From NCBI GenBank assembly GCA_017514685.1, contig JAFWJN010000020.1:1-42787 (forward strand): a stretch of DNA of 42,787 bases. The letters run 5' to 3'. How positions within the stretch are numbered: the first letter of the stretch is position 1; each line of letters starts with the position of its first letter. Below the pieces are notes generated by a model. That model saw only the letters and a program-made list of their open reading frames with translations, did no database searches and was not told the origin of the DNA. Shown here piece after piece: positions 33,551-36,455 of this stretch. Position numbers and translations under genes: made by a program. The stretch is from Clostridia bacterium (lineage in GTDB: Bacteria; Bacillota; Clostridia; Christensenellales; CAG-138).

Positions 33551-34696
33551 ATGAAGCAGAAAGAGGAACACGAGCTTTCTCCGGTACAGCGCCGGTGGAA
33601 ACTGTTCTGGCATTATATGAGACCGGTTACGATCTGGGTCGCCAGCATTGCGATTGTTCTTGTGATCATGTCTCTGTCAATCAATTATATTGTTTCGCAT
33701 TATGTTTCTGCTGTGGATCCGGATGATGCGACTCCTTATGAGGTTACGATCCCTGCCAATTCTTCTGCAGGGACGATTGCACAAATTCTGTACAGGGCAT
33801 GCGGAGAGGACCGGGAGGGTCTGATTGTCTCAACGGCTTCCTTTAAGATTTATGTGGACTTCGTTGGAAAAGCCAACAGTCTGAAAGCAGGAACATATAT
33901 TCTCTCAAAGAATATGTCCATCAAGGAGATCGTCAATATTCTGGAAGAAGGCGTTCCTGCCCGGACTTCTGTGCGAATTATGATTCCGGAAGGATATACC
34001 GTGGAAGCAATCGCGGCTGTTCTGACGGAGCAGGGTGTATTGACAGAAGCTTCTACATTCAAGACTCTTTGTAAAACGACTGATGCTTTCAGTAAATATA
34101 ACTTCCTTAACGAACTGACCGGAGCGCAAGACAGAACGTATGCGCTGGAAGGTTATCTGTTCCCGGATACATACGATTTTTATCTGGAATCAACTGCTGA
34201 GGAAGTAATTGAAAGAATGTTGGCCAGATATTATGAGATTTACAGCGGTGAGTATGTAGACCGTGCCGAGGAGATGGGTATGACCCGTGATCAGGTCATG
34301 ATTCTGGCTTCCATCATTGAGCGTGAAGCGAGAGAGGATGAGGACTTTGCCAAGGTGTCCGCTGTGTTCCATAACCGACTGAAAGCAGGAATGAAACTGG
34401 AATCCTGTGCTACGCTTTCCTATGCGACAGGAACGACAAGACTATCCTTCTCGGCTCAGGAGATGGCGATTGTATCTCCTTATAATACATATCTGAACAG
34501 CGGACTGCCGATCGGACCGATCTGCAATCCCGGCCAGGCAGCGATCCGTGCGGCGCTCTATCCGAATGAGGAATACGTGGAAGAGAACTATCTGTATTTC
34601 TGCAACGGTAACCCGAACGAAACGTCAAAACTGTTTTTCTCCAAGACCTATGAAGAGCATCTGGTGAATGTGGAAAAATACAGTAAGTACTGGTGA
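33551..34696 (+). CDS. mltG: Endolytic murein transglycosylase MltG
   Basis: A 381-residue membrane-anchored enzyme that cleaves nascent glycan strands and ends their elongation. A cytoplasmic N-terminus is followed by one membrane helix (about 26-50), a LysM-like part (about 60-135), and the YceG domain with LEGYLFPDTYDF and catalytic Glu257 in ASIIEREAREDEDF. The later motif is GLPIGPICNPG. AAAGGAGGA at 33537-33545 supports the ATG at 33551. It ends the long run that began with rbgA. The ABC-F promoter follows directly. Confidence 0.96.
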   Translation: MKQKEEHELSPVQRRWKLFWHYMRPVTIWVASIAIVLVIMSLSINYIVSHYVSAVDPDDATPYEVTIPANSSAGTIAQILYRACGEDREGLIVSTASFKIYVDFVGKANSLKAGTYILSKNMSIKEIVNILEEGVPARTSVRIMIPEGYTVEAIAAVLTEQGVLTEASTFKTLCKTTDAFSKYNFLNELTGAQDRTYALEGYLFPDTYDFYLESTAEEVIERMLARYYEIYSGEYVDRAEEMGMTRDQVMILASIIEREAREDEDFAKVSAVFHNRLKAGMKLESCATLSYATGTTRLSFSAQEMAIVSPYNTYLNSGLPIGPICNPGQAAIRAALYPNEEYVEENYLYFCNGNPNETSKLFFSKTYEEHLVNVEKYSKYW

Positions 34697-34704
34697 TAAA
34701 AGAC

Positions 34705-34734
34705 TTGACCCCGTCAAGGGACATTTGATATACT
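34705..34734 (+). promoter_or_regulatory. Promoter of the ABC-F leader
   Basis: TTGACC (34705-34710), an 18-base spacer and TATACT (34729-34734) with an extended -10 TG at 34726-34727. Transcription should begin near 34741, just before the leader ORF's ribosome binding site. Confidence 0.7.
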
Positions 34735-34756
34735 CAAGACAAAGAGAGGAAGTGAA

Positions 34757-34868
34757 ACGATGCGCAAATAATCTGTTTTTTCGGCTGGCTGCAAAGCCCT
34801 GCAAGGGGTTTTGTTTCCTATGGAAAACAGATCGCATCGTGAAAGAATGACCGCTCTGCGGATTGTTT
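34757..34868 (+). promoter_or_regulatory. Leader with mutually exclusive hairpins upstream of the ABC-F gene
   Basis: Structure A: ACGATGCG (34757-34764) pairs with CGCATCGT (34833-34840), and ATCTGTTTT (34771-34779) with AAAACAGAT (34824-34832). This gives 17 pairs with a six-base bulge, and it encloses the leader ORF's start and stop. Structure B: AAACAGATCGCA (34825-34836) pairs with TGCGGATTGTTT (34857-34868) with one mismatch. A and B cannot coexist. A ribosome on the leader ORF would block A. A terminator follows. The logic resembles ribosome-mediated attenuators of antibiotic-resistance genes. The antiterminator is not resolved. Confidence 0.65.
34760..34771 (+). CDS. Three-codon leader ORF (Met-Arg-Lys)
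   Basis: ATG CGC AAA TAA with a good ribosome binding site GAGAGGAAG at 34744-34752, seven bases upstream. It lies about 20 bases into the predicted transcript. It is far too short for a protein but of the size of uORFs that sense stalled ribosomes. Its start codon is inside the left arm of structure A and its last stop base begins the second part of that arm. Confidence 0.6.
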   Translation: MRK

Positions 34869-34873
34869 GCGTG

Positions 34874-34906
34874 AAACCGTTTTCTGTAGGAGAAAACGGT
34901 TTTTTT
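34874..34906 (+). terminator. Intrinsic terminator directly before the ABC-F gene
   Basis: AAACCGTTTTC (34874-34884), a 7-base loop and GAAAACGGTTT (34892-34902) form a perfect 11-pair stem with a T-run. It ends 20 bases before the ATG at 34926, between the promoter and its gene, so it must be conditional. Confidence 0.85.
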
Positions 34907-34925
34907 GTTTGACAGGAGTATAAAA

Positions 34926-36455
34926 ATGCTGCAGATACAGAACTTATCAATCACACAGAAAAAGGACGATAGAGTCCTGGTAGAGGACCTTTCATTTGTC
35001 ATTAACAACGGCGAAAAAGCGGCGCTGATCGGAGAAGAAGGAAACGGGAAATCAACTGTCCTGAAATGGATTGCAAAACTTCCGGAAGTACATGAATATG
35101 CAAACATTTCGGGAAGTATGGTCTGTGATCATGTGATCGGATATCTTCCTCAGGAACTGAGACCGGAGGAAGCCGTTCTTTCCGTAGCGGATTATTTGGA
35201 ATCCAACTGTTCCATATCCATGCAAAACCCAAAGGATGTTTCGGTTCTGATGAGAAAGCTGGGAATCGATAAATCCCTTCGCTATGAGACAAGACCTGTG
35301 AACACACTTTCAGGCGGTGAAAGAATCAAACTGCAGATGCTTTCCCTGATGCTGAATGACTGCGATCTTTTTTTGCTGGATGAGCCTTCGAACGACTTGG
35401 ATCTGGACACATTGGAGTGGCTGGAACAGTTTATTAAAGAGTCAAACCGGACATTTCTGTTTGTTTCCCATGATGAAACGCTGCTGGAAAATACAGCGGA
35501 TGTGCTCATCCATCTAGAACAAGTCAGAAGAAAAACGATTCCACGCGCAACGGTTGCCAGAACGGGATACCGGGAATATCTGAGCAGAAGAGAACGCGCT
35601 ATGGAGCATCAGACTCAGGTCTCGACTTTTGAACATGATCAGTTCAGGAAGAAAAAGGAACGTTATCTCTCTATCTATCAATCCGTGGAACATGCGCAGA
35701 AGGAAATCAGCAGAGCAGATCCATCGGGCGGAAGACTCTTGAAAAAGAAGATGCACACGGTGCAATCACTTGGGAGAAGATTGGAAAAGGAGCAGGAGCA
35801 ACTGACAGAATTGCCGGAAGCGGAATGGGCGATTCTCCCGAAATTTCCGGAAGGAATCGAAATCAAAAGAGGAAAGACAGTTCTGGATTTGTATCTTCCG
35901 GAACTGGAGGCAGGAGGGCGAGTGCTTTCCCATGATATCAGGTTGAATGTAACCGGGCCGGAGCATATTTGCATCATCGGGAAAAACGGGTGCGGAAAAA
36001 CAACTTTGATGAAAAAGATAGTTGAAGCGGTCAGAGCAAAGAAGGAACTATCTGTCGGATATCTTCCTCAGAATTACAATGATCTTCTGAACCCGGAAAT
36101 GACCCCGATCGAAATTCTGGCGCCGAATGGAGACAAGGAATCAGTGACCAGCGCGCGGATTTATCTTGGAAGCATGAAATATACCACAGAAGAGATGGAA
36201 CATTCCGCATCGGAACTGTCCGGAGGGCAGAGAGCGAAAATTCTTCTCCTGAAAATGATTCTGGAAGGAAACAATGTTCTGATTCTGGATGAACCGACAC
36301 GTAATTTCAGTCCGCTTTCCAATCCTGCTCTTCGCACGCTGTTTAAAAATTATAAAGGAGCCATTATTGCGGTCAGCCATGACCGGAGATTTCTGGCTGA
36401 AATTGCAGACCGAACACTCCGGCTGACAAAAGACGGGCTGATCGAAGTCTCCTGA
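34926..36455 (+). CDS. ABC-F ATPase, probably a ribosome-protection type
   Basis: A 509-residue protein with two ATP-binding domains and no membrane part. Domain 1 has GEEGNGKS (36-43), NTLSGGERIKLQ and LLDEPSNDLDLD. A charged linker (about 200-290) follows. Domain 2 has IIGKNGCGKTT, ASELSGGQRAKIL and LILDEPTRNFSPLS. The usual DEPTNHLD of domain 2 is thus replaced. ABC-F proteins bind the ribosomal E site and either tune translation or dislodge antibiotics. CAGGAG at 34913-34918 supports the ATG at 34926. The attenuator-like leader argues for an antibiotic-inducible protection protein, which is inference. Confidence 0.85.
   Translation: MLQIQNLSITQKKDDRVLVEDLSFVINNGEKAALIGEEGNGKSTVLKWIAKLPEVHEYANISGSMVCDHVIGYLPQELRPEEAVLSVADYLESNCSISMQNPKDVSVLMRKLGIDKSLRYETRPVNTLSGGERIKLQMLSLMLNDCDLFLLDEPSNDLDLDTLEWLEQFIKESNRTFLFVSHDETLLENTADVLIHLEQVRRKTIPRATVARTGYREYLSRRERAMEHQTQVSTFEHDQFRKKKERYLSIYQSVEHAQKEISRADPSGGRLLKKKMHTVQSLGRRLEKEQEQLTELPEAEWAILPKFPEGIEIKRGKTVLDLYLPELEAGGRVLSHDIRLNVTGPEHICIIGKNGCGKTTLMKKIVEAVRAKKELSVGYLPQNYNDLLNPEMTPIEILAPNGDKESVTSARIYLGSMKYTTEEMEHSASELSGGQRAKILLLKMILEGNNVLILDEPTRNFSPLSNPALRTLFKNYKGAIIAVSHDRRFLAEIADRTLRLTKDGLIEVS

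Follow-up and report, generated by a model that had tools for sequence, protein, structure and literature searches.

Attenuation linked to an upstream open reading frame (uORF) has been described for several ABC-F genes. The uORF of the Bacillus subtilis vmlR leader encodes MIN and sits where the anti-antiterminator bulges; next come a small pause hairpin, which later forms the antiterminator apex, and a terminator. An MRK uORF is present in other Bacilli, and when transferred to B. subtilis it works, although induction is weaker than with MIN (PMC9226507). For cplR, the clostridial uORF consensus is MR[I/M], and lincomycin and retapamulin are inducers (PMC10201436). Listeria lmo0919 (vgaL), with its leader rli53, is likewise under uORF-linked attenuation (PMC10201436), and streptococcal msrD is regulated via drug-dependent stalling on a leader peptide (PMC10314930). 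Here we analyze the leader of an ABC-F gene in a 42,787-nucleotide (nt) stretch of DNA from a Clostridia bacterium of the order Christensenellales (contig JAFWJN010000020.1 of assembly GCA_017514685.1, ‘the window’ in what follows). Our conclusion, which extends an earlier sequence-only reading of the same DNA, is that the leader is probably a ribosome-mediated transcription attenuator with the vmlR architecture, responsive to antibiotics. Sequence and computation reveal its parts and show that these exclude one another; the antiterminator is conserved and covaries, and the switch can be reproduced in folding models.

The leader resembles that of B. subtilis vmlR in its three-codon uORF situated in a bulge, a small hairpin that acts as antiterminator apex, a terminator and an ABC-F gene (PMC9226507). 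It resembles that of Clostridioides difficile cplR in its three-codon uORF, a 5′ hairpin over that uORF, a terminator and an antiterminator used when induced (PMC10201436). Two traits of the vmlR type are found here: a short uORF with its own Shine-Dalgarno (SD) sequence is located within the first hairpin (A), and A, the antiterminator and the terminator are mutually exclusive (Table 1).

Table 1. Positions of the leader elements and the ABC-F gene, numbered from the first letter of the window.
Feature	Positions	Strand	Basis
Promoter: TTGACC, 18-nt spacer, TG-containing extended −10, TATACT	34705..34734	+	10/12 consensus matches, sigma-70-type
SD region of uORF (GAGGAAGTG...)	34746..34756	+	sequence
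Hairpin A, left arm (anti-antiterminator), contains uORF	34757..34779	+	
uORF ATG CGC AAA TAA, Met-Arg-Lys	34760..34771	+	ATGCRC-x-stop uORF in 29/55 homologous leaders
Apical hairpin within A	34791..34814	+	minimum-energy fold
Antiterminator, 5′ arm (UUUCCUAUGGAAAAC)	34814..34828	+	covariation, 19 leaders
Hairpin A, right arm	34824..34840	+	
Small hairpin CCGC-UCU-GCGG, antiterminator apex in model, possible pause hairpin	34851..34861	+	
Intrinsic terminator, 13-bp stem (34873-34903) plus T-rich tail	34873..34910	+	
Antiterminator, 3′ arm (GUUUUCUGUAGGAGA)	34879..34893	+	
SD sequence AGGAG of ABC-F gene	34914..34918	+	sequence
ABC-F gene, 509 amino acids	34926..36455	+	

The locus also differs from these systems. 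The vmlR leader includes a hairpin (SL-4) over the SD of the gene, whereas in the window that SD is open to about the same extent (0.39–0.48) in all four states that we modelled, so that no second, translational layer is seen; the two proteins moreover belong to different ABC-F clades (PMC9226507). We treat a hairpin of the SL-4 type as an extra layer and not as a defining trait of the vmlR type. In cplR the terminator stem contains the SD of the gene, while in the window the SD lies 10 nt past the stem (PMC10201436). Among open-licence papers we recognized none on this ABC-F clade. The attenuator type and the occurrence of MRK uORFs in Bacilli were already known; the lineage, the exact pairs and the covariation are new. 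With the window, the ABC-F genes that are probably controlled by ribosome sensing come to include a Clostridia lineage with relatives mostly from metagenome assemblies (several of them from rumen or reticulum), and exact base pairs are at hand for testing the switch.

The gene product contains two PF00005 matches within one frame of 521 amino acids, which corresponds to the predicted ABC-F architecture of two ABC domains on one chain without a membrane part. Its score against the NCBIfam model NF000355 (ribosomal protection-like ABC-F) is 379.7 bits, below the cut-off of 380, and six relatives score 270.0–297.8 bits; against the NCBIfam CplR model it reaches 215.9 bits, far below the cut-off of 780. 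The closest PDB chains are an ABC-F type ribosomal protection protein, YheS (two chains), ExpZ (likewise represented twice), Uup, Lmo0919 and a lincosamide-streptogramin A resistance protein. Judged by these best matches, the protein is antibiotic-resistance (ARE)-like, though not a member of NF000355, and is likely to act in ribosome protection.

Several elements named in the sequence-only reading (an extended −10 promoter, a uORF that encodes Met-Arg-Lys behind a good ribosome-binding site, structure A with its 17 pairs, and a terminator separating promoter and gene) are borne out by the analysis. The leader as a whole (34737-34912) folds at −65.2 kcal/mol, compared with −44.6 for shuffled sequences (z −4.86, with none of 200 shuffles as good). 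Structure A appears in the minimum-energy fold as 8 pairs, a 6-nt bulge inside the uORF and then 9 pairs, and the stretch that holds it (34757-34845) has a z-score of −5.56; for the terminator the z-score is −4.09, and in both cases 0 of 200 shuffles were as good. The uORF is preceded by GAGAGGAAGTG as its ribosome-binding site. An SD sequence, defined by our own list of 5-mers, precedes 2 of the 34 three-codon ATG frames in the window (19 on one strand and 15 on the other); among 2000 Markov-sampled leaders, 20 contained an SD-bearing three-codon uORF. The promoter site alone is weak evidence, because scanning returns 10 promoter-like sites in 4 kb where 4.6 are expected. Its −35 hexamer is situated within a small palindrome (CTTGAC-CCC-GTCAAG, 34704-34718), which also turns up in the scan as a terminator-like element of the − strand.

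The antiterminator had originally been sought in a pairing of 34807-34813 with 34872-34878. We replace that candidate with a helix of 15 contiguous basepairs between 34814-34828 and 34879-34893: the 26–27-nt regions that hold this helix pair at −20.9 kcal/mol, versus −8.5 for the region of the earlier candidate. Equal or better pairing with the left side of the terminator was obtained for 2 of 5000 shuffles of the 5′ region and at 14 of 6109 other 26-nt places in the window. The 3′ arm of the helix spans the terminator loop of 5 bases together with 7 bases of the left and 3 of the right terminator arm. The helix excludes hairpin A, because bases 34824-34828 are common to both, and it also excludes the terminator.

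To model the switch, nascent RNA was folded at successive 3′ ends, either free or with positions 34745-34776 held unpaired to represent a ribosome on the start codon. In the free leader (3′ ends 34893-34910) A stood at 0.93–0.99 and the antiterminator at 0.00, with the terminator reaching 0.97–0.98. With the uORF masked, the antiterminator rose to 0.78 at 34890, 0.92 at 34893-34896 and 0.90 at 34898, the terminator being at most 0.01; the small hairpin at the antiterminator apex stood at 0.99 for ends 34890-34896. In the folding model a blocked uORF lets the antiterminator form while the terminator is still unfinished. A further pairing, structure B, had been proposed as a functional alternative to A. 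Its letters do pair (at about −11 kcal/mol), but its stretch folds no better than chance (z-score −1.30; 22 of 200 shuffles do equally well). Of the 19 leaders compared below, 3 have a predicted counterpart, that of the window among them; we reject structure B in that role. Structure B reaches 0.50–0.73 with the uORF masked, at 3′ ends 34870-34880, and by the model may be at most a transient competitor that is later displaced.

These observations suggest the following sequence of events. Without drug, the three-codon uORF would be translated, the ribosome would leave quickly, and hairpin A would form and sequester part of the 5′ arm of the antiterminator, so that the terminator would halt transcription before the ABC-F gene. 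An antibiotic would hold the ribosome on the uORF, most probably as it initiates or directly afterwards, and the left arm of A would be covered; the freed 5′ arm would then pair with the 3′ arm before the right arm of the terminator had been made, and the polymerase would read into the gene. We infer both the stalling of the ribosome on the uORF and the kinetic control of the choice. The idea that a stalled ribosome breaks A and alters read-through came from the sequence-only reading, and is favored by the antiterminator as now located, by the relatives and by the models; its placement of the antiterminator and its structure B were not retained. By analogy, pleuromutilins, lincosamides and streptogramin A would be the inducing drugs. 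The msrD leader peptide is longer than three codons, and macrolide sensing in the manner of msrD by a three-codon uORF is unlikely. The msrD leader itself responds to macrolides (PMC10314930).

Of 103 genomes searched within the same family, 55 contain a relative of the protein at an E-value of 1e-80 or better, and we examined 55 upstream regions (including that of the window) that were chosen by protein homology and not by structure. Inspection revealed an ATG-CRC-x-stop uORF, at −139 to −259, in 29 of these leaders (‘MR-type’: 22 MRN, 2 MRK, 2 MRD, and one each of MRR, MRC and MHN), and a TTG-start uORF in 19; neither type is present in the remaining seven (L040, L043, L047, L057, L058, L062 and L064). 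Three of the seven (L040, L043 and L047) are close relatives without a leader, in which, by eye, the gene directly follows an acetyltransferase-like frame. Four weak relatives (L013-L016) were unused, and five loci that are identical over their last 200 nt to whole-genome loci (L001-L004 and L010) were counted once. In a protein tree built from the first 166 residues only, with bootstrap not settled, the leader classes track the protein: one clade (98/92) unites the three MR groups with three leaderless rows, and another (100/99) holds the TTG-type leaders.

The composition of these uORFs bears on a different sensing role. Any cause of stalling can be read by an attenuator, and codon 2 encodes Arg in 28 of the 29 MR-type uORFs; the leader might accordingly sense some other slowing of uORF translation, such as poor charging of Arg or Lys transfer RNA (tRNA) or general initiation stress. 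We consider this improbable, given that codon 3 varies among those 28 uORFs (N in 22, K and D in two each, R and C in one each), that a classical amino-acid attenuator needs more than three codons, and that the downstream gene encodes an ABC-F protein and not a biosynthetic enzyme or a tRNA. It also runs counter to the behavior of the CplR and VmlR leaders, which have similar uORFs and are induced by lincomycin or retapamulin (PMC10201436, PMC9226507).

The attenuator reading is strengthened by what is conserved in the MR-type leaders. A contiguous helix of 6–15 basepairs between the region to the right of the apex of A and the downstream hairpin is available in all 29, and in 22 of them no cross-clade partner swap is as good as the native helix; such alignment-free swaps are a fairer test than anchored counting. 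Single helices were matched by 0–5 of 200 shuffles in 14 of the 29. For 19 leaders (the genus of the window plus genus g6) antiterminator pairs were counted with an anchored script of our own, because MAFFT failed to register the 3′ arm across clades. Paired cells amount to 83.5%, versus 40–55% for slid registers and a mean of 77% for permuted partners; 6 of the 15 pairs display a double change, with 16 double-change cells and 18 further pair types. Permutations reached the paired percentage, the double-change cells and the further pair types in 0, 0 and 3 of 500 trials, respectively. When the uORF was masked in these 19 leaders, the antiterminator exceeded 0.5 in every one once its 3′ arm was complete, and in 17 it rose from at most 0.36 to at least 0.76. 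Hairpin A (or its equivalent) is paired in 92.4% of cells in 18 leaders, with slid versions at no more than 61.1%; it is conserved, but does not covary. The compensatory changes for which the sequence-only reading had called are found in the antiterminator and are nearly absent from A. In the clade of the window, a simple scan detected an uninterrupted terminator stem with a T-rich tail in all six leaders. The TTNTTT sequence, a NusG-type pause motif, is present in the window and follows the small hairpin in 6 of the 19 leaders, so that this hairpin is at most a candidate pause hairpin.

Other measures were less discriminating. Duplex energies for whole regions average −31.7 kcal/mol for native and −26.5 for swapped partners, with the native partner best in 3 of 29 leaders, and for some leaders they separate the two poorly. 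RNAalifold returned 8 weak pairs for alignment A4 (from which L041 was omitted), none for A2, and 42 mostly invariant pairs for A3; L053, L063 and L065 were omitted from A5. In the sister clade (L032-L039, L042 and L044-L046) the right arm of A is followed by CTCC or CCTCC, complementary to the AGGAG(G) of the uORF, and A may for that reason also close the ribosome-binding site of the uORF there.

A number of results weigh against the attenuator reading. Seven of the 29 native helices are matched by at least one partner swap (L023 by 8 of 23, L026 by 7 of 19, L031 and L048 by 2 of 19 each, and L039, L045 and L046 by 1 of 16 each), and single helices in 15 of the 29 leaders are matched by 7–46 of 200 shuffles; since many helices are singly unexceptional, the case for the antiterminator rests on the whole set. 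In the anchored count the register was picked in each sequence for the longest helix, which biases it towards the antiterminator, and 50 of 500 permutations reach the observed number of antiterminator pairs with double changes. Hairpin A has a single double-change pair, a count reached by 126 of 500 shuffles, and the terminator scan found a match in 10 of 13 sister-clade leaders, in some of them at other hairpins. In the folding model the antiterminator already stands at 0.82 (L020) and 0.90 (L041) with a free uORF, and at full length it exceeds 0.5 in only two of the 19 leaders (L020 and L039). In the window itself, once the right arm of the terminator is complete, the terminator prevails at equilibrium (0.97 at 34904 and 0.94 at 34910) even with the uORF masked. 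The choice between the two structures would therefore have to be kinetic, as is usual among attenuators.

A strong terminator can lower expression without any regulation, and the scarcity of covariation in A would suit hairpins that act as a constitutive partial terminator and merely reduce expression, with an incidental uORF. We regard that explanation as slightly less probable still than the sensing of tRNA charging or initiation stress, because the uORF is retained in 29 of 55 leaders that were selected by protein and because the antiterminator covaries. It is very improbable that the hairpins arose by chance or serve the upstream gene, with the terminator ending its transcript: that gene ends at 34696 and the scan listed no strong + strand terminator between it and the promoter, but the promoter-like site is positioned between that gene and the terminator, and both uORF and antiterminator recur in relatives.

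The same gene carries leaders of other types elsewhere in the family. In the 10 leaders from genus g20 (L022, L024-L031 and L048) a long hairpin is predicted whose left arm contains the uORF and which extends into UUUUUCUAUU; over the SD of the gene a second hairpin pairs UCUGCC with GGCAGA, nearly all pairs being invariant. The terminator scan found a match in 3 of the 10, at an inner hairpin. A short stretch around GCAGGCTTTTTCTATTCTGC is nearly invariant in these leaders.

The 19 TTG-type leaders come from genera g13 and g23 (L049-L056, L059-L061, L063 and L065-L071). The TTG of their uORF is invariant, codon 3 encodes I in 18 and codon 4 encodes R in 15. The SD of the gene is predicted to pair with the SD region of the uORF in, for example, L055, L059, L060, L061, L063 and L065, and with UUCGCUGA of the uORF in, for example, L049, L051, L052, L056 and L066-L069. 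Native pairs average −10.3 kcal/mol versus −7.6 for swaps; four natives beat all swaps, and the others are beaten by 1 to 16 of 18. Masking the uORF raised the modelled accessibility of the SD in 14 leaders and lowered it in 5. Translation of the TTG-type uORF may control the SD of the gene. For 8 of the 19 the scan reported a hairpin of some kind followed by a T-rich tail, versus 6 of 6 in the clade of the window, so that these leaders may have a terminator. A sequence model of the TTG leader matched one copy each in 18 of the 103 family genomes (16 of which were used in building it), always at the start of the homologous gene, and the exact TTG pattern, sought in 297 genomes of the order, turned up in three, each of which belongs to g13 or g23.

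One reading of this series, for and against which we find the balance even, is that within one family, and on one ABC-F gene, the whole sensing device has been exchanged while a very short uORF has been retained. The device would then exist in three forms: a three-hairpin MR-x transcription attenuator, the g20 form and, in g13 and g23, a compact leader with an invariant TTG start that encodes M-x-I-R and has no strong conserved terminator. In the last of these the SD of the gene would pair with the ribosome-binding site of the uORF or with its last codons, giving a translational attenuator whose two ribosome-binding sites shut one another. The 55 homologous leaders provide a natural series for asking how a sensor changes attenuator type while the gene stays, and whether the uORF peptide (MRN, MRK or M-x-I-R) sets the drugs that are sensed.

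An Rfam search of the window gave no family at gathering score; a permissive search of 34690-34940 gave four matches, all far below their gathering scores, and in 12 loci a single tRNA was the sole match at gathering score. Model R1, which covers the first half of the leader and was built from 18 leaders, found the copy in the window at an E-value of 1.4e-16 within its own genome, where the next match was at 0.11. Across 297 genomes of the order 16 matched at 0.01: four strong matches (1.4e-16 or better) are sequences used in building the model, and most of the other 12 (2.7e-4 to 0.0099), one of which has an ATGCGC-x-stop uORF, are probably due to chance. In a small control, the upstream stretches of four other ABC genes in the same genome contained no SD-bearing uORF of up to seven codons; among these genes only one (L114) looks like an ABC-F gene from the start of its sequence.

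An independent hint that MR-type uORFs accompany ABC-F genes comes from a genome of genus g15 (G030), in which no relative of the protein from the window was found at 1e-80. There an ATGCGC-x-stop uORF (AAGGAGATGAAAGG-ATGCGCAACTGA) is located about 220 nt before an Lsa-type ABC-F gene (locus L079, 1150-1560, − strand); it encodes MRN and has a good SD sequence. The ABC-F protein, which is cut by the end of the locus, scores 544.4 bits on NF000167 (cut-off 750). Outside the family, relatives at four loci (L006, L007, L008 and L012) carry the short uORFs MNK, MIK or MLK. In two of them (L006 and L012) there is also a strong hairpin of terminator-like form, which a long helix joins to the right side of the uORF hairpin.

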